This document shows positions 12,475-47,287 of a stretch of 64,000 nucleotides of DNA, piece after piece; the stretch's first letter is position 1; each line of letters begins with the position of its first letter. The notes beneath the pieces were generated by a model that did not search any database, was not told where the DNA came from, and was given only the letters and a program-made list of their open reading frames with translations. The stretch is from Polytrichum commune (taxonomy: Eukaryota; Streptophyta; Polytrichopsida; Polytrichales; Polytrichaceae): assembly GCA_950295325.1 (NCBI GenBank), contig OX485806.1:16492001-16556000 (forward strand). The letters are read 5' to 3'. A program made the position numbers and the translations under genes.

Positions 12475-15400
12475 TCAGTTGCCCCAGTACATGTCACCCA
12501 TGATAAGTAGAATGAGAGATGTCCATCCTGTAAAAGGATGTGAGCCTTTGCCTTTGCCATTGTTCGCATTGTCATACTGCTCCCAAAGATATCCACTCTC
12601 GTGATATCTCTTTACCACATTCCTGCACATACATAACAAGTCAAAAACTGAAGTAATGCACCTTGTAACATCCATGAACTATCCTATGTGAAGGTCAGAT
12701 TAGGCCTAAATTGGGAAAAATTAAAAATTGAAATGCCACATGTCATCATGTCATTGAAAAATCTTTAACAATGACATGCAAATTGAATTTAGGTAGAGAG
12801 GTGCCCAATCAGACCTGAACGTATGGTAAGTATCTACAACTCTAGTTGCAGACCGTACTCTTGCTTGAAGGACAATCTTATATACTAAAAGGAATAAGTC
12901 ATGGTTAAATAAGAGATAAAGTGCAGCTACAAGTAGTTGGAGAATATATAGAAATTACTTTAGGGACTCAAGCTACAACACATTACAATAAACTGAAGCA
13001 GTTTCTTTGCTGAGAAGTCTGCAAGAGTTAATATTGACTGGGATGGTCTAGTGCAGAAATTCTATGCACCTGATCAAGTTCGAACGAAGCTCCAATTTCA
13101 TGTCACTGCATCGGGTGCTATGTTCACCTCCACCTGCAGGTGGATTGGTTCACACAATTTTCATAAGTGTATATCCTAACAAACTTCCACATGATGTTGG
13201 TCATGGGAAACATTTGAGAACCCAATATCAAAAATGTGACAAATGCATGAACCACGCCACATCACAGACATTTTTGGTAACCTTTCAAGCTTTCCAAAGG
13301 AAAAAACAGGAAACACATTGATGGTCTACACCTTTTGAACAACGTTCGAGTGCCGAGAGCACAAGATAGTTGATGTTCATCCAAACAGGTCCCCGCCAAT
13401 ATGGTGCATCATGCTCTGTATTGCGCTTCATATAGAGAGAGCTACAAATAAAATAAAAAGTGTTCGAAGTATAGTTAATGTAAAACTTAGATGCAAAAAC
13501 CTGCTATACTTCCATTAATAAATTGACAAGTAGATTCAACCACTTAAAACTCCCTACCAGTAAAAAGGAGGAACATAATTGGACCTTTACACATAATAAA
13601 CACTTTCTAGGCAAAGATTTCAGACAAAGCTATATCAAAAATAAAATAAAATAAACCCATAAGTTCACATGCTGTAGCAAAAGAGAAATTCATCATTGAT
13701 ATTCCTTGGAGGTGCTGAAATAGGTCAGGATATAACCTTGTAGTGGCAAGTGAGCGCAGCCCATAATCTGTCCACAAATTTGATTCGTTGTGTAGAAGAT
13801 CCAACTGAATCTTCAATGCTGGTGAGTCCTGTGAAAGGGCCAATATAACTGACCTTATTAGTAAGTGGCACTTCACATAAGAGCTTGAGGGCCCATGACC
13901 ATTCAAATCCAAAATCTCTCATTGGTGAGAAATGCCAAGACCACCCCACTTCAGTTTATACAAGAGCTTGAGGGCCTAAGGGACCCAGAAAGCTTGAATG
14001 GATAAAAAAACCTACTTGGAGTCCTAGATGGTGTTCAATGGATATTGTGTCATGGTCTACCAGATTTTGCACCAAGCCCACCTCAAAGAGGGGGGTCTAA
14101 CACAAAACCAGGAAAACAGGACACTAAAAAATCTCACAACCCTTGATTTATTATAACTGCTTTGTGTAGAAGGGCCCATGTGCAGGATGCTTGTGAAATA
14201 GCATTCAGTTAAAAGCCTGGCTGCGGATGTATTTGCACTACACTTGAAAGACCGTTACCACACAAAATTCAGTTTCAATTTTCCATGGTATGACCTTCGG
14301 ATGACTTTCAAGGGCTCTCACAATTTTATGGTCAAGGCACTTGACCATAGTGTAAAGTGGCCCTACAGCTGGCAAATTAGTTATTATATAGAACTTTCTC
14401 AAACCCCTCCTGCTCCATTACAGAACCACCCAATGGTGCAAGAATGATATAGAATAATAACTCACCAACGGCAATAGGTCCATGAGCAAGGGAAAGAGGC
14501 TATTGTAACCATAGTGTGGAACCCATCCCAGCTCGGGTGGTTTTGACACTAGCCTCTCCACCTCAGATTGGATGTATCCCGTCACAGGATCCACAAAACT
14601 CTTACGGTGCAACTTCACCTGCAACAAAATAACTCCTTGTGTCTCAGCGAACTTTGTTCCTTGTATTTGCACAAATCTACAGTATTTGGGCCTAAAATGG
14701 ACGATTTAGCTCTCCACCCACATCTCCTAGGCTATGAAACATGCAATTAGTGCAAGATGATTAGCACATCTACATCATGCCCATAACCATTTTCCTCTTA
14801 AGTTTTGGAGCCCAAATGAATTGACCTTATTCATTATCGAAATCCAGATTCTCGTTCTTCCTAAATGATCATGTAGGTTCCTCCAATTATATTCACTACT
14901 GAGCCTAAATGGTTATCAAATTTTGAGCATATAGTCCAACCTCTTTTTAAAACATGGTCTCTTTTTGGTGTCTGTCCTTGAATCCACACCTAACCAGACA
15001 CCACTTAAGAGAAGTAACCAAATTAGGTCCGCTTACATTCTACCAAGAAAGGTGACCTGTACTAGCTGAAGACACTCTGTATGGGTTATCTTTACAATGG
15101 ATTTATGTTGTTGGGTTGATTTTGCATTAGGAGAACTATGGACGCGCTTGAGCCAGATTGGCTTTAACAGGTACTAAGCACCACACAAAAATAGGAATGT
15201 GCCCACAACTACACCACAAACTAGCATATGAGCAATTAATTGACGTGAACCTAGTTGCAGTGAGGGGTCAAAGATAAACATGCCTCTTCAGTGTGAAGCC
15301 CATAATCAAGGTACTGTCCACTCTGATCGTCATAATGAAGCTGCAGTACAATTTGAACACATAGGTTCCTTAGCATGTGTTTTACCTATAAATCTCTACC

Positions 15401-27013: not shown

Positions 27014-28782
27014 CTAGCGACAAAGCTTCAGGCTCTTGAAAAAAGAAGCAACCTCACTCTTTCGGTACGGTTTAGTGGCAAGGCAAGTAGGAAAATTTTC
27101 AGGTTGTTCCATCCATAGCTTGTGAGCCACCCCACCAGTCTCCAATTTTTGAGCCAAGTTCCGAAGCTGAGTCTCTCCCTTAACTTCCAAGGTGACCTGC
27201 AAAGTATAGAAGACACACTTTCAGAAAATAAGCGCAATGACCTACAGGATGTCTCAATGTGAGATAGGGTTTTTTTTTTTCAAAGCAGGGGAACTAGAAG
27301 GAAAGCAAGAACCATCTCCTGTTCATCGTCAGTCCATTTAACCGTGTGAACCACAGGGAGGACACACCACTCACAGGTGAACTTGAATCAACAACGTGAG
27401 GATAGGTGCCTGGTGCAAGTATGAAAATGGGTCCACAAATTAATTGGGGCACCACAACACTTAGAGAGAGCGTGCTAAGGTAAGCGGGCCTAATCTAGTT
27501 ATTCATCTTAAACGGATACCTATATTTGAGTGGTGTGTGGTTGGATGTGGATCTAACAGCAGACACCACAAAGGCATTATGTGTTTAGAAGAGATTGTAC
27601 TATGTGCTAAACAATTGTAACCATTCTAGATTTTACTGTCAACATAATTGGAGGAACCTATATGATTGTTTAATGAGGAAGAGAATCTTCACTTCAATAA
27701 TTGAATAAGATATTCATAAGATCTCTGGAAATTGTGAGAAGAATGGCTACAGGCATGATATTGATTTGCTAATCATCTCATGCTACTTGCATGCCTCATA
27801 CCCTACTAGAAGTGGGTGCTAATGATACAAGAATGGGGAGACATGGTGGACAATTCTAACTTTCAATCTAGGTGGTAGACATGACACCAGATACGTGAGC
27901 CTCATTCAATTATTTATCTTAATCAGACACCTGTATTTGAGTGGTGTGTGGTTAGGTTATATCTAAAAACAGACAGCAAAAACGAATCATCTGTTTAGAA
28001 GAGATGGGACTATGTGGTCAAAATCTATCAACCACTCTAGACTCCATAGTCAACACAATTGGGGGCACCTAGGTGTTCAATTACAGAATCAGCACACGTG
28101 CACTTTTCGATAATCATAATTGATCCAAGGGAGCTCCAATTTTCAATCCAATTTTTGTTGATGGTTCATAATAGGGTTTACTAATGCAACACAAGTTTCG
28201 TTGCGTTGCATTGCGTTAATCTGTTCGGTAGAAGCTGGAGAACATGAAAAACCAACTGAACAATACCCACATACCTTGGTCCTTACAAACGCTTCACATC
28301 ACAAATGCATCTGACACATAGCAAAGAAGCAGAAGAAGGCAGGATGAACGGAATACCTTGTGCATGTTGTCCAAATTCTCAGTGCCACAATACTCAGCTG
28401 TGACAGGGTCATCCTTATGAATCCAGATAGCTGCCACAGCAGCATGACACCCCTGCGAAATAACACTCCCCAATGGCCACTTCATTGTGTCCACCAAATC
28501 CTTCCTCAATACAATGTACTGCACCACTGGATCAGGTTTCTGAACAGTCTCTTCGGTGGTGCCAGAAGGAGCCCCCTCCATGGAGGAATTGTGAGCAGGT
28601 AAGGGTGGTACTATGCTATTGGTGCCAATTGAGCTGGAATTTCGAGACAGAAACAACGAATTGTTATGCTCACAAAATGTTAGGGACAATGAGGAAATCA
28701 CACGGGGATTCGCAAAACCGGTGAAGAAATCATGGCCTGGGGATGAGTGACATAGCCGGGTCGTTGCTTGCAGACAGTTCAT
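27014..28782 (-). CDS. PTRHD1-like peptidyl-tRNA hydrolase 2 domain protein, 2 exons
   Basis: Exon 1 is 28782-28357 (142 codons, ending at MHK with an AAG|GTATTC donor). Exon 2 is 27196-27014 (acceptor TTTGCAG, ending at TAG). The product is about 202 aa. The PTH2-fold domain covers about residues 86-202. It begins VVQYIVLRKDL, continues through WPLGSVISQGCHAAVAA and VTLEVKGETQLRNLAQKL to GGVAHKLWMEQPEN, and ends LATKPYRKSEVASFFK. This order and length match the PTRHD1 branch of the family rather than classical Pth2. Family members are annotated as putative peptidyl-tRNA hydrolases, and enzymatic activity is less certain for this branch. The first in-frame ATG (28782) adds a Ser/Arg/Phe-rich segment resembling an organelle transit peptide. 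A second ATG at 28581 (residue 68) would give a short cytosolic form. Triplets upstream of 28782 stay open but contain no ATG. Confidence 0.88.
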
Positions 28783-28936
28783 GGACGTGAACTCTGATGG
28801 AGCCGAAAAATTGCTGCTACTTATTAATCCAGATGCATGTGACAATTTACAATCGAATTGCGTCTGGTGAAACGCAATCTCTCTCGGCGAGTGGATCAAT
28901 TTGATGCGATTCAAGGGACTCAGATGAGACTAGAGC

Positions 28937-29825: not shown

Positions 29826-30010
29826 CAGGGAGAACGGACCACTAGTTATAGATGAACCGGTTGAGTTTGTGAAATAACCAGTTGAAGTTCAAGACTTCAG
29901 GAAGATTACCGATCATTTTAGAGGAATATAATACCTCAAATCAATAAAGAAAAATTGAAAGATCACAACATGCAACCATTTGGACTTGGAAACACTAGGA
30001 TTTTGATTGA
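29826..30010. repeat. Dispersed repeat, inverted copy at 45836-46012
   Basis: About 175 bp here is the reverse complement of 45836-46012 with roughly 85% agreement by eye. Shared blocks include the reverse complement of TCAAAATCCTAGTGTTTCC and of CTTCCTGAAGTCTTGAAC. The element type is unknown. Confidence 0.65.
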
Positions 30011-30183
30011 TTATGTCCAAAAATCTCCTTGGACATTGGGTTATTTTGATACATTCTTGATTGCTAGATTGATTTTCCTTGCATACTTGAATAAACATAT
30101 GGGATTGTTAAATCAACCACACATTCATTAAAACGACCACAAAGTCTCATACTATAGCGTTGGCCAAGTTGTTTAGTTCACTT

Positions 30184-32344: not shown

Positions 32345-32775
32345 TGTCACGTGAGGTGACATCGGGGGCTAAATTATATCAATTTAGGAATAAATGGACT
32401 CCATTAGGAGTCCATGTGTGTTGGGATGAGTAACGGACTCCATTGGGAGTCCTAGTTAGTTGTTCATCCACTCCATGGATGAACTCCACATAGGATTGGG
32501 GTTGTATGGAGAGGAAGGCCTCTTGACTTGCCATTGTTGTCAAGTCAAGTCTTGTGAGTGTGTTTTGAGAGAGAGAGAGCTTGTTGTTGCTTTCTCATGG
32601 CTATGGTGTAGTAGATTATGAGTAAAGCCTTTGCATTCTTTCTCCACCACTTGCACTCTTGGATTCTCCCTTCGTGGAGTGAGAGATAGCTTGACTCTTG
32701 TGTGTGAATTTTAGAGTTTCTTAAGCTTTGTAAGGAGACATTTTAGTTTCTTAAGCTTGGAGAGAGAAACCCTCA
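32345..32775 (+). repeat. 5' LTR, lacking its first 107 bp
   Basis: Matches 41908-42338 with a single difference (A here, G there, in TTTAGGARTAAATGG). It begins at TGTCACGTG, which is LTR position 108, and ends at CCCTCA. Without the first 107 bp, part of the U3 promoter region is probably missing, so transcription from this copy may be weakened. Confidence 0.9.
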
Positions 32776-34245
32776 TACTTGACAACAATTGTTCAAATTT
32801 TTCATTTTTGGTTGTATTTCTGAGCCATAATGGCCCAGTAATGAGAGCAAATGAGTGATACAAGTGTTTGAAAGCTTAGTTTGTCATTTCTTGCAACCTT
32901 CAAGAAGATTTTGAGAGAAATCTTCCCATTTTTCTTTTGTTGTCTCTTTGTGTTTTCTTCAAGTGTTGATGGTTGAATCTTGAGATTCCATTTGGTCTCA
33001 AGATTCTCAAGTCACATCATTCTTGCTTGCAATTTGTAAAAGCAAAAGTTTAATTTTTTTTAAATCTACAAACAAATACAAACCAAACTTCAAATCCGAA
33101 TTTTTTTTATAATATTTTTTTTTTTGAGCTCCGGAGCTCCACGGACACTCTTGGAGCTCCTGGAGCTCCTGGAGCTCCAATTCTGCACCCCGAGCGGCAA
33201 AATCCCGGGGCGGGGGCGGCTAATCACGGGCCGGGGGCGGGCGGCGCCAGCCGGGCCCCACGGCGAGGTGGCAGCGGGCCGGGGGCGGGCGGGCGACAGC
33301 CTGGCCGGATGGCGGGCGGCGCCAGCCTGGCCCCCCCTCCCCTTTCCAAGGTACCACCTCCCTCATACTTTCATTTGAAGTTCATTAGTTAAGTTAGTTA
33401 GCTTCATTAGTTAATTAGATTAGCTAATTAAGTTATATTAATTAAGTTACTTAACTTAACTCTTGTTAGTTACTTAACTTAGATTAACTTAATAAATTAC
33501 GTTCATTAGTTTAAGTTAATTAAGTTAAGTTTAGTTTAGTTAAGTTAAGTTGAGTTAAACTAAATTAATTAAGTTAATTCATTTAAGTTAATTAAGTTAA
33601 TTAAGTTAATTAAGTTAAAGTTAAAGTTTATTTTATTTTATTTTTGGTTTTTGTTTTTCATTTTTGGTTTTTGGTTTTTGTTTTTGTTTTTGTTTTTGTT
33701 TTGTTTCATTAAAACAATTATTTTATTTTATTTTATTTTATTTTCACATTTTTACTTTTACCTTCCAAACTTGGCATCCAATTCTCACAAACTTTGAGGT
33801 TCAAATTTGGGGGCATCCTAGCTCCGAACGGAGTGAAATTTGAGCCTATCTTGTGTGAAATTTGCCAAAGAATCCAATGGTGTAATTGGATTGTTGATTG
33901 GAATTCAAAATCATTGCTGAAATTATTAATTTCAACGCTGATTTTTGTTTTTGGGAGCAAATTAACTCCAAACGGAGTGAAATTTGAGCCTAATTTGTGT
34001 GAAATCTTCCTAGGAGTCCATTGGTGCACTTAGTTTGTTGATTGGAGTTCATAATCACCTTGGAAATGAGCCTTTTCAACGCTGATTTTTCATTTTAATT
34101 ACCAATCTCAAACCTTTGCACAATTTTGGAATTCTGGGGGCATAAACACTTGGCATTTGGCAAGGGATTGCCATTTAGATAGCCCGCAACAGGTGCAGGT
34201 TGCCATTACCTTGTAGATAGTTGCAGGTACTCAAGTGATTATTTT
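32776..34245 (+). other. Retrotransposon leader: no standard PBS, GC-rich and AT-rich blocks
   Basis: After the LTR comes T then ACTTGACAACAATTG. This is not the usual TGG start of a tRNA-derived primer-binding site, so priming is unresolved. Positions 33127-33350 are a strongly GC-rich island with repeated GGAGCTCC palindromes and repeated GGGCCGGGGGCGGGCGG-type runs. Positions 33370-33620 are TTAAGTTAATTAAG-type low-complexity DNA, and 33640-33745 are T-rich. About 33800-34090 holds two diverged copies of a 144-bp unit (CTCCRAACGGAGTGAAATTT at 33822 and 33966). No ORF is assigned here. Confidence 0.75.
33800..34090 (+). repeat. Leader tandem repeat, 144-bp period, 2 copies
   Basis: Both copies carry an ACGGAGTGAAATTTGAGCC block, TTGTGTGAAAT, TTGTTGATTGGA and a final TTTCAACGCTGATTTTT. 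The copies have diverged far more than the LTRs, so the duplication pre-dates this insertion and is part of the element. Confidence 0.8.
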
Positions 34246-37200
34246 ATGGTGCAAACTAGGAGCCGATATTATCGATCTCCATCACCAGATTATTTGGAAA
34301 ACGTGCATACCACAAATCTTGAGCCAGAGGTAGATACCAACGAGGCTTTTGAGCCTATTTCGGCGTTGGACACTACTAGTAGGCTTCGGATTTGGAGTGT
34401 CGGCACGTTCGACGAAATGGAGGACGATCGCCACAATTCAGTGCGTGATCGGTTCTCAGGTCGAGCTGGGGGAATTTCCTTGCCCGATTGGAAACTCCGG
34501 TTTCGTACCTGGATTAAGGATAAACGCCAAAGGTCTTCCAATTTCAATGATTGGTATGCCTTTGAACTTCTGCCTCAGCATTTGGAGTATGAGGCACTCC
34601 AAACTTACGAACGCTGGACAGAGGGTCATCAGCGACAACTTCGGGAGGTGGAGCAGTATTGGGAGGCCCGGGTTGAACTTATTTCAGCCCTTAAAGATGG
34701 GGCGATTGCCACCTTAGCTCCACCCACCTTAAAGGAGGAGGATCCACCGGAGGAGTCTAAGGACCAAGAACTGGCATTTGGGCCACTGGTGGCTGGCAGT
34801 AGCACGGCTACCCTTTCACGGATGGCACGTGCTACACAGGCAGCATTGACGGCTGTTGGTCCACCACCTCCATTTAATCCCCTTACTGAATTTGTCGCAC
34901 ATTTGGAAGTGGAGTATGGTGGGTTTCGGCGAGACCAGATGCAGCGCATCCAGGATTTCCGCCGAGAGAAGGATGATACTCCACGGACCATGTATACGCG
35001 ACTCACGCGATTTGCTGTGGAGTCGGGAGGTGTTTTTGCTGAGAGTCAGCTTGTTAAAATATTTTTGTCTAAGATTGACAAGCGGCTACTTGAGTTGGCA
35101 TCACCTCGGATTATCCTCGACTACGAGGGCCGAGCTACGCTTGCACAAGCGTTTGCCGTGGTTGAGAAATGTGATCGGGCTCTTTGCCAACATGATGCCA
35201 CGGATATGGTATCTTGGATGACAGAGAGTCCGAAACCAAGAAGAATTGTCACAGCTACTAGTAGTTTAGCTGAGACTCAACCCGTCAAGGAGCAAAAGAT
35301 TTTGCATTGTTGGGGTTGTGGAGAAGCTGGTCATTCGAAGAATGATCCCAATTGTCCTAAGAAGAAGAAAACTCAGCCTTTGGGAAAATTAAAACAAAAG
35401 ATGGAACCAGTAAGGGCAGGGTACAATTCTAAGAAGAGACAATTGAAATGTAGCCATTGTGGTGGCACTAATCACGATGTGGATCATTGTTTCCTACTTC
35501 ATCCTGAGATGCGGCCTGCCAGTTATGTCACTGGAAAGTCTCCAAGGGAGCAGAGTCTTGAGGCTAAGGTGGCAGAGCTTGAGCAAAAGCTCAAATCTTC
35601 TGCATCTTTTGCTCAAATTTCTGAGCCGCATGTGGGTGGTGGCACTTCGGGTTCGGACATGTATATGTTTGGAGCAGCTGGAGAGGTGGTGGCGGCGGCT
35701 TCTACTCGCTCACAAACATTGGTAGATGCGGTGGCTTCCACGAGTGGTGGTAGCAACGAGGTGCTACATCCTCGCCATGCCGGACCAGCTGATCAAATTG
35801 GTCAAGCACGTTTACCTCTTTCATTTGGATTGGTAGACACCACTGTTGTTGGGGCTAAAAACCCTGTACCTTTGAGAGATGGGGATTCCATCTCGAAGGA
35901 TGTTACGCAGGCATTGGCATATAAAATTCTCCATATGCCAATTTTCTCGGGTTCGGAGTTTATGGCTTCGGATTTCAAGCCTGCTGCAGTTTTTCATTTA
36001 GCTGGGAGAATGTTAGAAGGTAAGGCGGATTTGCCATCCCTTCAAGTATCCCAAGCTGTGGTTGACGTACCTGTGGCTGAGGAGGTGGAGGATTTAGCCA
36101 ATTTGCGAGCGGGTCTTGCGGATGCGGCGATCATTGCTTTTGGTAAGCAAATTGATATTCCTCCAGCATCAATTTCAGCAGTGGATACGTCATTTTCGAA
36201 TTATGCGTCGGGAGCGGCATATCTTGCAGACATTTCTGCAAGGCCTGCTCGCGAACGGCATAATTTGCAACCTGGAGTTGTACGGCTGATGAACGACAAA
36301 TCTTTGTTTGTCGTTTCACGCACGGATATGCCCACTATCCGTGCTACACCACTGAGAGTTATGATGGATTCCGGTGCTCAACCGGTTATGATTGGCAAAG
36401 GACTCGCTGACAGTCTTGGATTGACGCCAGCAAGCTTGGATCCTTGTCCATTCACTATTGTGACTTCAGTAGGGGGCACTGAACGTGCAACAGGTTACAC
36501 CAAGGCACCTCTACGTTTGATTTTTCATGTGGGGGCAGGGCCTACTTACACTCATTTGTCAATGAAGTGTGTTGTTACTAATGCTACCAACTATGATATA
36601 CTTGTTGGTCAGCAAGCTCTTTACCCACTTGGCTTTGGTTTGGATAATTGGACGGAAGAGGCATGGATTAGACCGGGATGGTCCACTGGAGATGGCAGGA
36701 AGGTATTTATTCCCGTCACATTTGCAGCCACTGCTATGACTATGGTTGCGGAGGCAATGTTTGGTTGCAGCGGTTCAGTTGCAGATTTGCCTTGTGCTCC
36801 AGTTTTATTGGAGGAAACAATGGACTACACTTGTAATGCGGCAGAACAACAATTTTTACCATCTTTTCAAATTCCTGCTCGACATTTCAAGGATCCACCT
36901 CTACCATGGCGAACTCCTAAGGAGTTATCCGACCATTGTCGACACATTGTAGCGGATTTGGAGCTTGGAGAGGCACCCCCAACTTCATCCTCATTTTCTT
37001 TTGCTCAACTCATTCGTTGGCAACCATCACCTGAAGGTATTGTCCTTGTGGAGATCTTTGGAGGCATTGGGACAGGTTTGGCGGCAGTGTTGGAAGCTGG
37101 AATTACAGTTTGGCGATATATTCATGTGGACAATGGGTATGCAGCCAACAGAGCCGTCCGACACCACATCCAACAATTGTTGTTGAGATACCCCGTACAA

Positions 37201-37980
37201 TTGTCAGCCTCTGCCATTCATGGATGTTGTGGTCAACTTCCTCAAGATGTCACTATGATTAGTGATGAGGATTTGAGAAGGTTGGGCCACGTGGATTTGA
37301 TTCTTGCAGGATGGCCTTGTCAAGGCCATTCGCGGGCAGGAACTGGCCAGGGATTGGATGATCCTAGGTCTAGTTTGTTTGCGGATTTGATGCGATTGAC
37401 GCAATGGTGGTTTACCCACCAATCAACTCCGCCAGGGTACATTTTCGAAAATGTACAATTATTGGGTGATACCCGGCACAAAGTGGTGAAGGATAGTGAG
37501 TACATTAATCAAATTCTGGGTACTCCAACATTTCTGGATGCTGCATCTTTGGGATCCTTTGCTCATCGGCCTCGTTGGTTTTGGACCAACTTTGTATCAC
37601 CTCGGGTGTTTTCAGTGGCGATTGCCCGCATTCCCCGCCTTATGGATCGCAAGGTGGATGACATTTTAGATGATCATCGTGTTTCCTTGGCAGTTACCAA
37701 AGATGACATCTTGCCATTTGCATTAATTAACAAGGTGGGAATTCCGAGAGGTGCACTACCTACTTTTGTGACATATCCACAGTCTTTTGCATTTCGATCT
37801 CGTGGACCTGGCATGGTTTGGGATTTTAAAAATCCCAAACTTATGAGGAGCCTACGGCAGATGAGCGGGAACGCGCCATGGGTTTTCTTACAGGTACCAC
37901 GGCTGCTCACGGGCTTCAGGAAGGTCAGAGACGTTTCCTATTGGGGCAAGCTATGGATCTTAATAGCATTGTGTGGATAA
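34246..37980 (+). CDS. Gag - protease - DNA methyltransferase polyprotein (1244 aa)
   Basis: ATG at 34246 (MVQTRSRYYRS). Gag capsid-like region about residues 205-335. Two zinc knuckles: C355-x2-C358-x4-H363-x6-C370 and C402-x2-C405-x4-H410-x4-C415, for RNA packaging. A coiled-coil-like stretch lies at about 445-460. Aspartic protease has DSGA at D708. The cytosine-5 methyltransferase covers about 930 to the end: motif I VEIFGGIGTGL (E936), motif IV AGWPCQGHS with catalytic Cys 1025, motif VI FENV (E1068) and motif VIII RPRWFWTNF (R1108). The uninterrupted I-to-VIII order and the RxRWFW block resemble DNMT3/DRM-type enzymes more than DNMT1, by eye only. The last motifs are not in this frame: after about 37836 the family-like sequence continues one frame back, and this frame ends in unrelated residues at TAA 37978. 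Confidence 0.9.
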   Translation: MVQTRSRYYRSPSPDYLENVHTTNLEPEVDTNEAFEPISALDTTSRLRIWSVGTFDEMEDDRHNSVRDRFSGRAGGISLPDWKLRFRTWIKDKRQRSSNFNDWYAFELLPQHLEYEALQTYERWTEGHQRQLREVEQYWEARVELISALKDGAIATLAPPTLKEEDPPEESKDQELAFGPLVAGSSTATLSRMARATQAALTAVGPPPPFNPLTEFVAHLEVEYGGFRRDQMQRIQDFRREKDDTPRTMYTRLTRFAVESGGVFAESQLVKIFLSKIDKRLLELASPRIILDYEGRATLAQAFAVVEKCDRALCQHDATDMVSWMTESPKPRRIVTATSSLAETQPVKEQKILHCWGCGEAGHSKNDPNCPKKKKTQPLGKLKQKMEPVRAGYNSKKRQLKCSHCGGTNHDVDHCFLLHPEMRPASYVTGKSPREQSLEAKVAELEQKLKSSASFAQISEPHVGGGTSGSDMYMFGAAGEVVAAASTRSQTLVDAVASTSGGSNEVLHPRHAGPADQIGQARLPLSFGLVDTTVVGAKNPVPLRDGDSISKDVTQALAYKILHMPIFSGSEFMASDFKPAAVFHLAGRMLEGKADLPSLQVSQAVVDVPVAEEVEDLANLRAGLADAAIIAFGKQIDIPPASISAVDTSFSNYASGAAYLADISARPARERHNLQPGVVRLMNDKSLFVVSRTDMPTIRATPLRVMMDSGAQPVMIGKGLADSLGLTPASLDPCPFTIVTSVGGTERATGYTKAPLRLIFHVGAGPTYTHLSMKCVVTNATNYDILVGQQALYPLGFGLDNWTEEAWIRPGWSTGDGRKVFIPVTFAATAMTMVAEAMFGCSGSVADLPCAPVLLEETMDYTCNAAEQQFLPSFQIPARHFKDPPLPWRTPKELSDHCRHIVADLELGEAPPTSSSFSFAQLIRWQPSPEGIVLVEIFGGIGTGLAAVLEAGITVWRYIHVDNGYAANRAVRHHIQQLLLRYPVQLSASAIHGCCGQLPQDVTMISDEDLRRLGHVDLILAGWPCQGHSRAGTGQGLDDPRSSLFADLMRLTQWWFTHQSTPPGYIFENVQLLGDTRHKVVKDSEYINQILGTPTFLDAASLGSFAHRPRWFWTNFVSPRVFSVAIARIPRLMDRKVDDILDDHRVSLAVTKDDILPFALINKVGIPRGALPTFVTYPQSFAFRSRGPGMVWDFKNPKLMRSLRQMSGNAPWVFLQVPRLLTGFRKVRDVSYWGKLWILIALCG

Positions 37981-38345
37981 TTGGAATTTGTCTTGCTGCT
38001 CAACAACGTATGAATGACCAATTGCTTCCTCTGAGGGCAGAGAACAATGGTCAGGGGGCAATGGAGCCGCAATCCAATGATCACATTGAGGTCAATGACA
38101 TCGAGGGATTATTTCCTTTGAAACTTCATGTTGCGGAAGAGCTTCGAGCCCAACGTGTTTTTTCGGCTTTGGCCCAAGAGTTTGGGAAGTTGGAGGCCCA
38201 TAAAATGTTTCCACTTCTATTTCTTGGTGATACTTCATATGTGGGTAGCTATTTAGCTACACAAACTGATTGTAGTGGAGAGGATACGCATTTGGATTCA
38301 AGTGCAGATGATGGGGGCAAAGGTGTTGCCCTCTCCACGGACTAG
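37830..38345 (+). CDS. Methyltransferase C-terminal part in the -1 frame, then linker
   Basis: The frame opens just after TAA at 37827 and continues the methyltransferase: EEPTADERERAMGF resembles the motif IX region, and LLGQAMDLNSI at about 37941 resembles motif X (usually GNA). No start codon is needed if ribosomes shift, or if this copy lost one base in the CCC run at 37834-37836. An ATG at 37878 could start only a fragment. After the enzyme a linker of about 100 residues of unknown role follows, ending in TAG at 38343-38345. This frame is the same one used by pol downstream. Confidence 0.75.
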   Translation, partial: KSQTYEEPTADERERAMGFLTGTTAAHGLQEGQRRFLLGQAMDLNSIVWIIGICLAAQQRMNDQLLPLRAENNGQGAMEPQSNDHIEVNDIEGLFPLKLHVAEELRAQRVFSALAQEFGKLEAHKMFPLLFLGDTSYVGSYLATQTDCSGEDTHLDSSADDGGKGVALSTD

Positions 38346-38351
38346 CAATCA
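38343..38351 (+). promoter_or_regulatory. Candidate readthrough stop (UAG CAA UCA)
   Basis: The only stop separating the methyltransferase C-terminal part from pol in the same frame is TAG followed by CAATCA. This fits the UAG-CAR-YYA context known from tobamovirus stop-codon readthrough. The first in-frame ATG in pol is 40 bp further on (38385). Readthrough would yield a fused methyltransferase-pol product; the use of this signal here is inferred. Confidence 0.5.
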
Positions 38352-41300
38352 CAGGCTGTGCTAGCACCAATTGGCAATCCTTCTATGAAGAAGGAAACCA
38401 CGGAGTTTGACGATTGGCCAATTGAAGTGGGGCCAAAGCTTACTGGTGCCGAAGCACGAAAGGTACGGGCATTTATTCGCTCTTACCGTAATTGTTTTGC
38501 CTTTAGTCTTCATGATCTTGAAGGATATAAAGGTAAACCTGTTCGTATTCAACTCGAGGACGACCACCCTATTTTCAGACGGCCGTACAGACTTAGTACC
38601 TCTGAAAGGTTGGATGTTCAAACTCGATGTCAAGAGTTATTGGCAGCGGAATTGATTGAACTCTCCAATGGAGAGTATGCTTGTGCCACGGTTATGCCGT
38701 CAAAGAAGGATATCTTCGGCAACTGGACGGAAAAACGGATGTGTGGTGATTATCGTCCAGTCAACCGCAAGACCAAGTCGGATCGATATCCAATGCCGAT
38801 GCCGGAGGAGTTGTTTGATGCACTGGGATTTTCTAGAATCTTCAGCACTCTGGATTTGAGGTCTGGTTATCATCAATTACCTTTGTTGTTGGGTGATCGG
38901 GTGAAGACCGCATTTTGGGGAATTGATAAAGATGGCAAGGATCAACTTTATCATTGGAAATTTCTGCCATTTGGTCTCAAGAATGCACCAGCTGAATTTC
39001 AACGGGTGATGGACCAATTATTGGCTGGTTTGCCGTTTGCTAGATGTTACATTGATGATGTTATCATCTTTAGTAACAGTCCACAGGATCATGTGAGACA
39101 TTTGCAAGCGGTATTTGAACGACTTCAACGGTGGGGACTTCGTTTACATCATGGAAAATGTAAGTTTTTCCATGATCAATTGCCCTATTTAGGCCACATG
39201 ATTGTTCCTGGCGGTCTTGGTGTGCAACAGGCGAAGGTGGATGCTTTGCACAAAATTCCCGCACCTAGTGATGTACCACGGCTTCGTGCATTTCTAGGAT
39301 TGGCAAATTATTATAGGAGGTTTGTCAAAAACTTTAGTTTGATTGCCAAACCGCTTACCATTCTCACGGGGAAAGACCAACCATGGATTTGGAGTCGGGA
39401 ACAACAACAGGCATTTGATACATTGAAGCAGAGGCTCGGTTCAGCGCCAGTGCTTCGACGCCCGGATGTGTCTAGAGCTTTTCAATTGCACACGGATTGG
39501 AGTGCAGTGGGATTGGGAGCGGTATTGACACAGAAAGATGAAGAGGGAAAGGAATATGTGGTGGCTTATGCATCTAGAAGCAATAATAGTGCTGAATCTA
39601 ATTATTCTTCTTATGAAGGCGAGGCCTTGGCGGCCGTTTGGGCCATTGCACATTTTCGACCTTATTTGTATGGGCAAAAGTTTACTTTGGTGACTGATCA
39701 TCAGCCTTTAAAATGGCTTATGGAATCAGATAAGCTCACCGGGAAACTTGCTAGGTGGGCATTGTTACTTCAGGAATATGATTTTGAAGTTGTTCACCGA
39801 GCAGGAATTGCCAACTTGGATGCAGACGGATTGTCTCGCAATCCAAGTCCTTCAGATGAGGATTTAACTGGAGCCAGGTGGCATGGAGATTGTGATCGTG
39901 AGGCAGTGCCGGGTTGGCATGCTGCCACATATCTCACAATGATGTCGGGATTGGCTGCTGAGATCCTTGTAGAAGAACAGGATGAGGAGGTTGATAAATC
40001 TCTCGTTGTTAGTGATGTGTGGGAAGACCAGGCGGTCTTGCACAAACTTCAACAAGGGATATTTCCTCTTGGACTATCTGCTATGGAGCGAGATAGAGTT
40101 AGTCACAGGATAACAAGGTTTCGTTGGGCAAACAGCTTGTTATTTCGTGTGTGGCCGAACGGAACGAGGCGCATCGTTCCAAGGCCAGATCAAAGAGCTT
40201 CTTTGGTGCGGCAAGTGCACGAGGAGCTTGGACATTTTGGAGTGCGAAGAACACACTCTATGTTGCGCAACCAATATTGGTGGACTGGTATGTATCAACA
40301 GGTTGCCGCTTATGTTTCTAGGTGTGAAGTATGTGACCGGGTCAGGTCAAGTTTTAATACTTTATCACCTCAACTTCAGCCTTTACCTATTATGGGCTTG
40401 GGATATCGTTGGTCTTTGGATTTTGCCGGACCGCTTACTATCACTCCACGTGGCTCCAAGTATGTGCTTGTGATGGTGGAGCATTTTAGTAAGTGGATTG
40501 AACTCGTGGCTCTTCCCCAAAATTCCTCAGAATTGGCAGCTATGGCATTTCTTGATCGAGTTTTGGCACGGTTTGGAGCACCTGCAGAGGTGTTGACGGA
40601 TCAAGGGAGAGAATTTCTTGGATCTTTCGAGGCTTTGATTGATCATCGGACAACTTCTAGAGATCACCCTGAGGCAGATGGCTTAGCTGAACGAGTTGTT
40701 CAGACGGTTAAGCGCGGTTTGCGGAAGTATGGATTGCTTCATGGCAACCATCGCGATTGGGACTTGATGTTACCATGGATAGCAATGGGTTATCGTTTCA
40801 GCAGGCAAGCATCTTTGGCATCCTATAGTCCTTACCAACTCTTGTATGGACGGGAACCAATTTTACCTAGCTCGGTGCGAGAGAAATTGGCTCCCGTGGT
40901 AAACTTGGATGATCCAGATGTTTGGGCTCAATGTCTTCATGACCGAGCAGCGTTCTTCCAAAAGGCCATGCCTATGGCTATGGAGAACTTGAATATTGCT
41001 CAACATCGTGATACATTACGGTATGCCCGGATCCGCAGTGGAGCTTATCGACCTCAGGTTCGTAGATTTTCCAAGGGGGATTATGTTTACTTGCAACGGG
41101 AGGCGCCTACGACATTAGATGTCAAGGCTGGGCGCACGATTTTGCGGGTAAAAGATGTCTTGCCAAGTGGTATATTATTGCTTGAAGGCAAGGATGGACG
41201 GGAATGTTGTGAGCATTCAAAGAATTGTGCTCCATGTCGCCTTCCCATCGACGGCTCTGTGCATCCCGAGTTGGCAGTTGTACCACAGGGTCTGCCTTGT

Positions 41301-41474
41301 TATGTTTGTGGAGAGAAGAAAGGAGCTGCAACAATGTTATTGTGCGACCAATGTCAACGTGGATGGCACATGGCATGTTTGACACCTCCCCTTTTTACTC
41401 TTCCTTCTGGCAATTGGGTTTGTCCTCGTTGTCGGAAAGCCTCTCATTCCGTGGCCGTTAATGGTCATGATTGA
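38346..41474 (+). CDS. Pol: reverse transcriptase - RNase H - integrase - PHD finger
   Basis: Numbering from the GTG at 38358: reverse transcriptase about 60-270 with LDLRSGYHQL, FGLKNAPAEFQ and YIDD at 231-234; RNase H about 370-490 with D380 (HTDWSAVGLGAVL), YEGEALAAV and TDHQPL; integrase with an H-H-C-C zinc region (VHEELGHFG ... CEVC), then catalytic D688 (SLDFAGP), D748 (LTDQGREF) and E778 (DGLAERV). The D-E spacing is 29 residues rather than the usual 35, a local 6-residue loss that may harm activity. After the integrase C-terminal region comes a Cys4-His-Cys3 PHD finger at about 981-1025 (CYVCG, LLCDQCQRGWHMAC, WVCPRC) instead of a chromodomain. Expression probably depends on readthrough of the UAG at 38343, or on initiation at ATG 38385. 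Confidence 0.92.
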   Translation, partial: QSQAVLAPIGNPSMKKETTEFDDWPIEVGPKLTGAEARKVRAFIRSYRNCFAFSLHDLEGYKGKPVRIQLEDDHPIFRRPYRLSTSERLDVQTRCQELLAAELIELSNGEYACATVMPSKKDIFGNWTEKRMCGDYRPVNRKTKSDRYPMPMPEELFDALGFSRIFSTLDLRSGYHQLPLLLGDRVKTAFWGIDKDGKDQLYHWKFLPFGLKNAPAEFQRVMDQLLAGLPFARCYIDDVIIFSNSPQDHVRHLQAVFERLQRWGLRLHHGKCKFFHDQLPYLGHMIVPGGLGVQQAKVDALHKIPAPSDVPRLRAFLGLANYYRRFVKNFSLIAKPLTILTGKDQPWIWSREQQQAFDTLKQRLGSAPVLRRPDVSRAFQLHTDWSAVGLGAVLTQKDEEGKEYVVAYASRSNNSAESNYSSYEGEALAAVWAIAHFRPYLYGQKFTLVTDHQPLKWLMESDKLTGKLARWALLLQEYDFEVVHRAGIANLDADGLSRNPSPSDEDLTGARWHGDCDREAVPGWHAATYLTMMSGLAAEILVEEQDEEVDKSLVVSDVWEDQAVLHKLQQGIFPLGLSAMERDRVSHRITRFRWANSLLFRVWPNGTRRIVPRPDQRASLVRQVHEELGHFGVRRTHSMLRNQYWWTGMYQQVAAYVSRCEVCDRVRSSFNTLSPQLQPLPIMGLGYRWSLDFAGPLTITPRGSKYVLVMVEHFSKWIELVALPQNSSELAAMAFLDRVLARFGAPAEVLTDQGREFLGSFEALIDHRTTSRDHPEADGLAERVVQTVKRGLRKYGLLHGNHRDWDLMLPWIAMGYRFSRQASLASYSPYQLLYGREPILPSSVREKLAPVVNLDDPDVWAQCLHDRAAFFQKAMPMAMENLNIAQHRDTLRYARIRSGAYRPQVRRFSKGDYVYLQREAPTTLDVKAGRTILRVKDVLPSGILLLEGKDGRECCEHSKNCAPCRLPIDGSVHPELAVVPQGLPCYVCGEKKGAATMLLCDQCQRGWHMACLTPPLFTLPSGNWVCPRCRKASHSVAVNGHD

Positions 41475-41800
41475 GAATTTTGTGGATGTTTACCACATGT
41501 TTTAGTGGTGAAGTTGTTATTTAGTTGGTTGGAAATTTTATGGGATTAAGACCACATTGAAAGAGTTATCCAAGAATTCAACATTAATTGTTGAAGGCGA
41601 TTAAGGATGGGGCTCACATTGCACCCAGCCTACAGTTCTTGGATTACTTTGTCAATCATGAATTTAATTCCTTCGATTACTACTACCCAATTAAATATGT
41701 GTAGATGTAGCAACAACTTCATCATGTTCAACAACTCTACCGATGAGTGTGTTTGTTCCTAGCCGATTGGAGGGGCTCCTTATCTGCTAGTGGGGGCACT
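41475..41800 (+). other. Retrotransposon 3' untranslated part and polypurine tract
   Basis: About 325 bp between the pol stop and the 3' LTR without a gene. It ends in GTGGGGGCACT. The G-rich run TGGGGGCA is the likely polypurine tract for plus-strand priming, followed by the two bases CT and the LTR start TG. Confidence 0.65.
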
Positions 41801-42338
41801 TGAAGAGGTGGTTGTTTAGCATTTTAGTTTGCTATTTCATTTTGCTAATTGATGTTGACAACGACACTCGATCTGTTGTGTTTAACGATCTTAGTTTACA
41901 CGACAGCTGTCACGTGAGGTGACATCGGGGGCTAAATTATATCAATTTAGGAGTAAATGGACTCCATTAGGAGTCCATGTGTGTTGGGATGAGTAACGGA
42001 CTCCATTGGGAGTCCTAGTTAGTTGTTCATCCACTCCATGGATGAACTCCACATAGGATTGGGGTTGTATGGAGAGGAAGGCCTCTTGACTTGCCATTGT
42101 TGTCAAGTCAAGTCTTGTGAGTGTGTTTTGAGAGAGAGAGAGCTTGTTGTTGCTTTCTCATGGCTATGGTGTAGTAGATTATGAGTAAAGCCTTTGCATT
42201 CTTTCTCCACCACTTGCACTCTTGGATTCTCCCTTCGTGGAGTGAGAGATAGCTTGACTCTTGTGTGTGAATTTTAGAGTTTCTTAAGCTTTGTAAGGAG
42301 ACATTTTAGTTTCTTAAGCTTGGAGAGAGAAACCCTCA
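41801..42338 (+). repeat. 3' LTR, full length (538 bp, TG...CA)
   Basis: It runs from TGAAGAGGTGG to CCCTCA. Positions 41908-42338 equal the 5' LTR apart from one base. The first 107 bp (41801-41907) recur exactly at 42342-42448. The body contains a (GA)n stretch, a run of ACTCCATT-type repeats and two TTCTTAAGCTT blocks. Confidence 0.85.
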
Positions 42339-42448
42339 TCTTGAAGAGGTGGTTGTTTAGCATTTTAGTTTGCTATTTCATTTTGCTAATTGATGTTGAC
42401 AACGACACTCGATCTGTTGTGTTTAACGATCTTAGTTTACACGACAGC
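42339..42448 (+). repeat. LTR-LTR junction and extra first 107 bp of an LTR
   Basis: After the 3' LTR comes TCT and then an exact copy of LTR positions 1-107. T is the base that follows CCCTCA at the 5' LTR, and CT is the pair that precedes TGAAGAGG after the polypurine tract. Together they are what end-joining of untrimmed linear cDNA would leave in a 2-LTR circle. The piece stops at GACAGC, exactly where the 5' LTR piece starts (TGTCAC). Confidence 0.8.
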
Positions 42449-42462
42449 CAATTTACAAGGAG

Positions 42463-42584
42463 TTCCTAACACGTTCTCAATACCACCCCTTTTGAGGGGC
42501 TCTATGCCCTCTAAAGCCTTCCATTCCTAACACGTTCTCAATACCACCCGTTTTGAGGGGCTCTATGCCCTCTAAAGCCTTCCA
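42463..42584. repeat. Tandem duplication, 61-bp period, 2 copies
   Basis: The unit starting TTCCTAACACGTTCTCAA and ending CTCTAAAGCCTTCCA is found at 42463-42523 and 42524-42584 with one mismatch. It begins only 15 bp after the retrotransposon end. Confidence 0.9.
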
Positions 42585-44745: not shown

Positions 44746-46767
44746 AGATTTTCCCTCCAGATCTGTGCATAGCGTTTCTCTTCATGTACTTTTTTAACTG
44801 TACTTCTGGTTAATACAACCTATGATTCGTCGACAGATACTCCCCGGAGTCTGCAATTTGTTCCGATGATATTGCCTCGATGAATCTTATCCTTGTTGTC
44901 CATACATGAATTTGAAAGTTGGGACTGGAGCACACAGAACTGAAGTAGATCGGTGACAGTCCTCAGGTATTCCCTTCTCGTTTGGTAACGAGTACGTCTG
45001 TTGGGATTGACTAGTAAAAAGATTGAACAAAAGAAACTCAAATAAGGTATCCATGTCGTGACGGAAGTGGAGTTCTTCTCCCACTTCTAAGTAGAAAGTC
45101 CTCTAAAGAAGGTCGTTTTCCCAGGTAGAATATATATGTGTATACAATTGCCTTCCATTTTTCAAGCATCAAATCGGTTACCATGGTGATCATCCTACTC
45201 AGTCCTGGCCGTTGTCTATTTTCAACCAATTAGGTGTTGCCGTGGCTAACTTACATGGGAGTGGTTTTCCCAATTGGCTTTGGGCGACCATCCACATGTC
45301 GGTTCAAGTTCACCTGCAAGTGCCGCTTCCTTCCCATGGTTCACATTTTATATGAACCGACAATCAATACGATATCGTTTTTTTCCTCCTCTCATCTACT
45401 GGTAGCTAAGAAACTCTCAATTGACAAATCATTTCTTTCCACATCGGCTGACAGGCAGGATGTTTCGAGAATAAGACAAATGTTTGTGGATGATGGCCAC
45501 TTCTGTAATCTCCGCTTCTATAACCTTGTGTTCAAATGAAGGACCTTTTTTAATGGTCAGTTCAGATGGACAGTTTCATTCAACTTGTGAGGTCCATACA
45601 TCAATATGTAGTAAACATTTCTCACTTTCTTATTTTACATCAATTTTACGTCACATTACAACTCCCTATTTCGCATATTCCATTGCTATGTAAAATAAGT
45701 ACGAAGTCAACCTTTTTGTAATTTATATCTCCAGACAGTCTCACAAGTCGGACTTGCTTATGATATGTCATCTCACATTGATGGAGAGAGATGAGATGAT
45801 GCAGTGTCCAGGGAAATTTTTGAGCGCACTTGGTCAAAATCCTAGTGTTTCCAAGTCCAACCAGTTACATGTTGTGATCTTTTGGTGTTTCTTATTAATT
45901 TGAGTTATATTCCATAGATTCCTCTAATATAATGGGTAATTTTCCTGAAGTCTTGAACTTCAACTGATTATTTGTCAAACTCAACTGGTTCATCTGTAAC
46001 TAGCAGTCAGTTGATGAGTTTCAGCCTGCAGGTATATAAACTCCATCTCTCCTTGTGGATTGCACACAGGTGAGCGGTTAGTACAGAGTGAACTATTCTT
46101 TCACCTTTTAGGAATGGACACCATGCGCTGGGTACACAGACCAGCATACCCTCATTTCTGGACTGCCTCTTTCAGGCCCCATATCACAAAACTCGAATTT
46201 GCATATGGTGTTTGGTTGTTTAATTCTAGTGTCATTCTGAAATAAATAACTTAGTTATTATCAAACTACCCAATTGAAGTTACATTTAAATTTAGCAATA
46301 ACTTTTTACCCAAAACTCAAAACTAATTTGAATATGGAACTTCAACACCTATGTAATGTCACCAACACTAAACGTAGACCAAACATTAGTAATAATTCCT
46401 CGTAAGAAAATGTGGGTGTGATAGATTTACAATGTTGCAATTACTATCACTTACTAAGTGATATTTGATCCAAATTTCAATCATTCATGTTAAAATTACA
46501 TCACATAATCCTCAAAATATAGAAAATATATGAATCCTTGTTTCAATAGTTGGAATGGGTTTCATCCAAATTTCAATCATCCATGACTTTACTTGTGAGC
46601 TTGTTCATTAGAAAAAATACCACAGTGACATAAAGTACCATTTGAACTAAATGCGAAGTTTAGTGTACCTTCTTGTATGGTTAAGCCATCACCCTTAAAA
46701 AAAACAAAAAACTCGAACATCGTCTCATTATAAAACTAAAAGCAATGCCTGCCTACTTCAGTGCTTA
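44746..46767. other. Downstream of psaH: no gene recognised
   Basis: AT-rich DNA. It includes the psaH 3' end and the dispersed repeat at 45836-46012 (inverted copy at 29826-30010). The short open frames here have no recognisable domains. Confidence 0.5.
45836..46012. repeat. Dispersed repeat, inverted copy at 29826-30010
   Basis: Begins TCAAAATCCTAGTGTTTCC and ends near CAACTGGTTCATCTGTAAC. It matches the reverse complement of 29835-30003 along its length. Confidence 0.65.
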
Positions 46768-47284
46768 GGGCATCTGTAGTGGATCTAGGTAAAGCTCACT
46801 GCAAACCAAAACCTATCTTTTGACTGACCTAAAATTAGAAACTGAAATTACCATCATTAGAAGCACACCTAAATAAACGTGAGATATTTCTCAAGAAAAA
46901 AGAATTGTAAAAATTTGACGTAGGTGAAATCCCTCATTGAAAACACCACATTTTCAAAATTTAGAGGGAGTGCACCAAATCTTGCTTTAAAATGGAAAGA
47001 TCCTCCCACACTCCCTCCAAATTTTTGACATTTAGAGGGAGTGTGGGAGGATCTTTCCATTTTTAAGCAAGATTTGGTGCACTCCCTCTAAATTTTGAAA
47101 ATGTGGTGTTTTCAATGAGGGATTTCACCTACGTCAAATTTTTACAATTCTTTTTTCTTGAGAAATATCTCACGTTTATTTAGGTGTGCTTCTAATGATG
47201 GTAATTTCAGTTTCTAATTTTAGGTCAGTCAAAAGATAGGTTTTGGTTTGCAGTGAGCTTTACCTAGATCCACTACAGATGCCC
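46768..47284. mobile_element. 517-bp foldback element (PIF/Harbinger-like), TTA duplication
   Basis: The whole element is one near-perfect palindrome. Arms of about 250 bp (46768-about 47018 and about 47034-47284) differ at very few positions around a short centre near 47026. Ends are GGGCATCTGTAGTGG and its complement, flanked by TTA at 46765-46767 and 47285-47287. The 3-bp TTA duplication and the GGGC ends suggest a Tourist-type MITE. It has no coding capacity; transcripts would fold into one long hairpin, a natural small-RNA source. Confidence 0.85.
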
Positions 47285-47287
47285 TTA

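Follow-up and report, generated by a model that had tools for sequence, protein, structure and literature searches.

Transposons are silenced in their hosts by cytosine methylation, and one that encodes a DNMT3-like enzyme of its own turns these roles around. DNMT-bearing LINE and DIRS elements have been described in Symbiodinium, together with KnitGypsy-Dnmt3 of the charophyte Klebsormidium nitens (PMC5890265). The captures of DNMT are called independent there, and the charophyte case was taken to be one such event in its own lineage; expression in yeast showed CG methylation by the DIRS enzymes and gave an inconclusive result for KnitGypsy, and DIRS methyltransferases are given as Dam-like (PMC5890265). 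The locus analysed here lies in a 64,000-nt stretch of Polytrichum commune (GCA_950295325.1, contig OX485806.1, positions 16,492,001 to 16,556,000, forward strand), referred to as the window, and all coordinates are those of the window. By its domains, the element in question belongs to the Ty3/gypsy retrotransposons and encodes, together with Gag and protease (PR), a DNMT3-like methyltransferase (MTase). An earlier sequence-only reading had pointed to precedents in dinoflagellates and a charophyte alga, and these are the Symbiodinium elements and KnitGypsy-Dnmt3 (PMC5890265). No land-plant report of such elements was found in the open-access literature searched, using limited wordings and with most subscription papers outside it. 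The reading preferred here, with a probability of about 0.5, is that this gypsy element primes its own reverse transcription, inserts from a circle with two long terminal repeats (LTRs), and methylates its own DNA copy before insertion. The coding features are as follows (ORF, open reading frame; RT, reverse transcriptase).

32345..42446, +, whole integrated element, A1-coding-B1-A2-B2, with outer ends TGTCACG...CACGACA and GC flanks on either side
34246..38342, +, ORF1: gag (CCHC zinc knuckles), aspartic protease, MTase and C-terminal linker; frame broken near 37820-37840
37030..37830, +, DNMT3-like cytosine-5 MTase domain, motifs I-VIII (Pfam, motif alignment, structure comparison)
37860..37961, +, MTase motifs IX-X (DERERAMGF, LLGQAMDL), in a different frame from I-VIII
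38343..38351, +, TAG CAA TCA, stop separating ORF1 from ORF2, fitting the type I readthrough motif UAG-CARYYA
38346..41474, +, ORF2: RT, RNase H (RH), integrase (INT; H2C2, rve) and PHD finger (Pfam, ORF translation)
41298..41432, +, PHD finger (Pfam; best solved matches CHD4, PHF12, lid demethylase and PHF21A)

Pfam matches on the reading frames gave the domain order gag-PR-MTase, then RT-RH-INT-PHD. The frame at 34183-37980 holds gag with CCHC knuckles, the protease and the C5-MTase, and the DNA_methylase match on this frame (1.9e-11) scored 44.4 bits vs a cut-off of 22. The sequence-only reading had placed a C5-MTase inside a gag-PR-MTase-RT-RH-INT-PHD Ty3/gypsy element, and the profile match and motifs confirm it at that place. 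Motifs I, IV, VI and VIII (EIFGGIGTG, AGWPCQGHS, FENV and HRPRWFWTN) lie in one frame and GQAMDL in the next. The frame switch near 37820-37840 looks like a private lesion of the window copy, since the long relatives stay in one frame there: nine of 1330-1437 aa (alignment A3), plus others, read through the site in a single frame. Among solved C5-MTases (PDB chains only, using the fold of the relative P0018), the closest in fold and profile was DNMT3; no DRM or DNMT2 row was among the 50 VIA-align matches listed, which is no evidence of absence. Motif IV is PCQ, unlike the PCN of DNMT3, and neither PWWP nor ADD was among the Pfam matches. RVT_1 matched at 1.2e-30 and the PHD finger at 4.2e-10. 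The aspartic protease (5e-4, 21.2 bits) fell below the curated cut-off of 24.3, and its D-S/T-G-A-Q motif is conserved among relatives; with that score noted, the Ty3/gypsy order PR-RT-RH-INT with an rve integrase is present. What is added to the sequence-only reading is that the MTase is DNMT3-like and sits in ORF1 ahead of a stop that is likely leaky.

The MTase part of ORF1, used as a query, matched 17 proteins with identities of 43-76% across 88-97% of the region; three belong to Marchantia polymorpha. A chance ORF is excluded by the Pfam match and these 17 proteins, as is a host-gene fragment unique to this single copy, which the sequence-only reading had named as its own refutation. That reading had also proposed looking for related copies in other seed-free plants, and they were found: a profile of the MTase domain matched 213 proteins, and the best 120 of these include Marchantia polymorpha, M. 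paleacea, Calypogeia fissa, Sphagnum troendelagicum and S. tenellum. One bacterial metagenome-assembled genome (MAG) among the profile matches listed was taken as mis-binned. The search with ORF2 gave 2366 matches, of which the best 120 include Klebsormidium nitens, Closterium, Riccia sorocarpa, Calypogeia and Astrephomene. An MTase was detectable in 41 of these best 120, either before the RT or between RNase H and integrase; P0190 (Klebsormidium) and P0220 and P0242 (Closterium) hold MTase and RT in a single protein. Several named relatives are partial gene models, and some relative is likely transcribed, because the ORF2 relative P0140 is a transcriptome entry by name. A contig of the unintegrated kind, L030, has 66% protein identity to P0001. 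Both L030 and P0018 are retrotransposon sequences from this lineage that sit in entries labelled as bacterial MAGs (Synechococcales, Obscuribacterales), a likely result of bin contamination.

The MTase tree was built from 26 of the 137 proteins P0001-P0137 and 37 of the 41 ORF2 matches with the domain; P0222, P0226, P0234 and P0247 were dropped as weak. In the MTase and RT trees of the 39 shared rows, for which 25 of the 27 rows with MTase after RT were used (two RT rows were too short), the two MTase positions were split in both, with support of 95/86 and 100/100. Distances in the two domains agreed as well (r 0.75 over all rows, 0.60 and 0.885 within the sets, 0/2000 shuffles each), and the concordant trees and distances therefore indicate that MTase and RT have long travelled together. 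Either one capture followed by a move or two captures of kindred enzymes would account for the two positions. The wider RT tree (109 rows, 70 without a visible MTase) cannot separate loss from a separate ORF, because many rows are ORF2 proteins whose ORF1 is unseen. A direct phage source was rejected: of 29 viral-contig loci, 12 were placed in the MTase tree, where they group together and separately from the 66 other rows. That tree was rooted on the viral loci by choice, and in it the DNMT3A branch is long and its place unsure. Scans of the viral contigs with P0001 and with ORF2 found no relative, nor did a 20-nt junction query.

ORF1 and ORF2 share one frame and are parted by the stop at 38343-38345. 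The type I readthrough motif is UAG-CARYYA (PMC5382211), and this motif with an in-frame continuation is present in both the window element and L030, which carries the identical nine bases TAG CAA TCA; the protein ends of other relatives agree with the stop. TAG CAA TCA is thus likely a leaky stop, at which most ribosomes would halt to give Gag-PR-MTase and a few would read on into a Pol fusion. Readthrough would place the MTase at Gag level and RT-INT-PHD in a rarer fusion. Re-initiation is unlikely in L030, because its ORF2 has no methionine before residue 117.

The element is gypsy by its domains and permuted at its ends. Its layout is A-coding-B-A-B, not two plain LTRs, and where a Ty3/gypsy element would have identical LTRs and a target-site duplication (TSD) of 4-6 bp, this one copy has GC at most. 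The repeats and predicted signals are as follows.

32345..32776, +, repeat A1, 432 bp, 1 mismatch/432 vs A2; predicted to hold promoter, R and U5
32533..32545, +, ATTGTTGTCAAGT, predicted RNA 5' end and self-primer, pairing over 13 nt with 32777-32789
32777..32789, +, ACTTGACAACAAT, predicted primer binding site immediately 3' of A1, 13-nt complement to 32533-32545
41789..41798, +, AGTGGGGGCA, predicted polypurine tract (by position), abutting B1
41799..41907, +, repeat B1, 109 bp, identical to B2
41894..41914, +, GTTTACACGACAGCTGTCACG, B/A junction with the ACA-GC-TGT palindrome, predicted integrase site; 21 nt identical to L030
41908..42339, +, repeat A2 (repeat comparison)
42340..42448, +, repeat B2, whose final two bases GC fall outside the ACA end

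The 13-nt complementarity between the primer site and 32533-32545 was reached by 0/20000 shuffles. In L030 the corresponding pair, ACTTGACAAAGAT and ATCTTTGTCAAGT, is 13/13 complementary, with two base pairs changed on both sides (compensatory), and again 0/20000 shuffles reached it. A complement kept with compensatory changes is a mark of Tf1-like self-priming, in which the primer site is complementary to the element's own RNA start (here a predicted start), and the element is predicted to prime its own reverse transcription. Priming by tRNA was rejected, as the primer site lacks an initial TGG (a judgement by eye, with no search against tRNAs). The RNA would begin near 32533 in A1 and end in A2, and its own first 13 nt would prime minus-strand synthesis. 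With this start, the LTR in RNA terms would be B+A, from the purine-rich tract to the primer site (541 bp), with U3 made up of B and the first 188 bp of A.

Given the predicted purine tract and primer site, the A2/B2 joint is the exact LTR-LTR joint of a two-LTR circle, and the integrated ends lie inside the LTR at the conserved ACA-GC-TGT palindrome. In the simplest account, a linear complementary DNA (cDNA) of the form BA-coding-BA would be circularised end to end, yielding exactly the A2/B2 joint; the integrase would then open ACA-GC-TGT inside the LTR and join those ends to the target, leaving A-coding-B-A-B. Insertion from a two-LTR circle is thus likely, as judged from the repeats. The PHD finger would guide the integrase to chromatin. 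The MTase would act on the double-stranded cDNA or the circle, before insertion, and this is the least certain step. The two ends of L030 are identical over 127 bp, a feature that may reflect no more than closure in the assembly and does not prove that a physical circle exists. The near-identical repeats indicate that the window copy is likely young.

Among the other accounts, the one that survives best, though it is rather unlikely, gives the MTase a regulatory role: it would methylate chromatin either at the sites of new insertions or close to them, or would reduce transposition, and the outcome would be a silenced state tolerated by the host. The kin of DNMT3 are established de novo enzymes, a PHD finger sits at the integrase end, and the discussion in PMC5890265 brings up both slower transposition and altered insertion-site chromatin; the MTase, however, lies in ORF1 and is unfused to the integrase-PHD part unless the stop is read through. 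An origin of the repeats by a DIRS-like mode of replication, with recombination at a GC of the target in place of DDE integration of a two-LTR circle, is unlikely. The layout equals the split direct repeats of PAT (PMC4157794), and GC stands at both ends as a GC crossover would leave it. Yet ORF2 has an rve integrase, the Pfam scan of three reading frames gave no tyrosine recombinase match at E values up to 0.1, and A2/B2 is precisely the joint predicted from the purine tract and primer site. An origin from a plain LTR element, with A as its LTR and a 3' flank duplicated afterwards, would need no circle, and A by itself starts with TG and is repeated at both ends; this is nevertheless quite improbable, as B2 exactly repeats the 109 bp preceding A2, B1 starts after a purine-rich tract and ends at the conserved ACA-GC-TGT, no TSD is present in the bases flanking A1 and A2, and the same layout was independently reported for KnitGypsy-Dnmt3 (PMC5890265). 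Least probable of all is an MTase reduced by now to a structural part or to idle cargo: although catalytically empty versions persist in four relatives, the catalytic Cys is conserved in 62 of the 63 other rows and the domain has a pN/pS of 0.25.

Several observations weigh against the preferred reading of a self-primed, self-methylating element that inserts from a circle. The break near 37820-37840 disrupts the window's own MTase. The TSD is at best 2 bp (GC), which is odd for a gypsy integrase, and the sample consists of a single integrated copy plus one unintegrated-type contig (L030). The stop was observed as DNA in just these two elements, and re-initiation is possible for the window, P0138 and P0139, because a Met lies at or near ORF2 residue 14 (at residue 14 in the window, with P0138 and P0139 starting with Met at about the same place). 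P0148, P0149 and P0190 are placed differently in the MTase and RT trees, with weak support. Four relatives with long open frames (P0222, P0226, P0234 and P0247) have an MTase-like stretch without the catalytic PCQ and ENV motifs and are possible pseudo-enzymes; the first three form one clade of the set with MTase after RNase H in the RT tree, in which P0247 was not included. Five more (P0191, P0193, P0196, P0201 and P0225) were examined and gave no significant MTase match, so methylation is not essential to these relatives. Between the window and L030, pN/pS was 0.25 (0.20-0.31) for the MTase, 0.36 for the gag part (394 codons), 0.28 for the protease, 0.08 for RT-RH and 0.05 for the integrase; selection on the MTase thus looks weaker than on RT or integrase, and dS is saturated in this comparison. 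CpG observed/expected was 0.66 in the element, 0.44 and 0.47 in the flanks and 0.21 in A1; with no overall CpG depletion there is no support for lasting CG self-methylation, of which a young copy would show little.

Other features of the window were noted in passing. The long leader of the element has two 144-nt units in tandem at 33806-34093, 78% alike, with a G+C-rich stretch upstream near 33170-33360, and two 61-nt units in tandem stand just past its 3' end at 42463-42584. An inverted pair of about 200 nt, 81% alike, flanks the retrotransposon at 29845-30038 and 45802-46000 and is perhaps an older dispersed repeat. At 46767-47285 there is a near-perfect inverted repeat with 256-nt arms, 99% complementary, and a 7-nt spacer, which may be a fold-back element or hairpin locus. 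Likely host exons are those of a PTH2 peptidyl-tRNA hydrolase at 28297-28929 (-) (2.9e-7) and of a GH63 protein at 14421-14705 (-), slightly below the cut-off; these were the only Pfam matches on 10 of the 58 ORFs of at least 90 aa outside the coding part of the element. Rfam gave no match at gathering scores.

The homologues in liverworts, mosses and a zygnematophyte, and the second set with MTase after RNase H, point to a partnership that is both old and lasting. It is tempting, though doubtful, to extend the preferred reading to a whole self-primed gypsy lineage that predates the streptophyte splits, integrates from two-LTR circles and captured a DNMT3 that methylates the circle, within the life cycle of the element and not in host defence. 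If integration from two-LTR circles holds, it would be a rare route for a retroviral-type integrase, and each insertion would keep a fossil circle junction, the integrase cutting a palindrome within the LTR. The pairing of split repeats with an MTase (cf. DIRS, Dam-type) would then be a functional one, reached repeatedly, between a circular intermediate and self-methylation. The circle junction and the self-primer make the life cycle of the window element directly testable.

Of the known systems, Tf1/sushi-type self-primed Ty3/gypsy elements likewise have a primer site that matches their own RNA start, but they are not known to carry an MTase and they have plain LTR ends. DNMT3A and DNMT3B (PDB) are alike in fold and motif order to the MTase described here and unlike it in having PCN for PCQ, and in PWWP and ADD, which were not matched here. 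The split direct repeats of PAT/DIRS elements share the A1-B1-A2-B2 layout, and the DIRS group has a putative methyltransferase (MT) domain; these elements differ in using a tyrosine recombinase, and Ngaro and Viper have split repeats without MT (PMC4157794). SymbioDIRS-Dnmt3 and SymbioLINE-Dnmt are also retrotransposons with DNMT domains, the DIRS form being A-coding-B-A-B, whereas they use a tyrosine recombinase or LINE machinery and are dinoflagellate (PMC5890265). The closest is KnitGypsy-Dnmt3, which combines a gypsy pol, a Dnmt3-related MTase and A-coding-B-A-B repeats, but has its DNMT in the Pol ORF, whereas that of the window element lies in ORF1 before the stop (PMC5890265). The main text of PMC5890265 contains none of the words Marchantia, fern, readthrough and PHD and gives no KFL numbers, and no description of self-priming for KnitGypsy-Dnmt3 was found there. 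We infer that P0190 (K. nitens; MTase, RT and rve, with 47% identity over 89% of ORF2 and the MTase ahead of the RT) belongs to the KnitGypsy-Dnmt3 family; it falls on the MTase-before-RT side, its exact place being weakly supported and different between trees. The window MTase is likely kin to that of such charophyte elements. Since the stop at 38343, also in L030, keeps the MTase out of the ORF that holds the RT, the window element is classed as a relative of KnitGypsy-Dnmt3 and not in the same family, and it differs in ORF placement, the stop, the PHD finger, the predicted self-priming and the proposed circle model.

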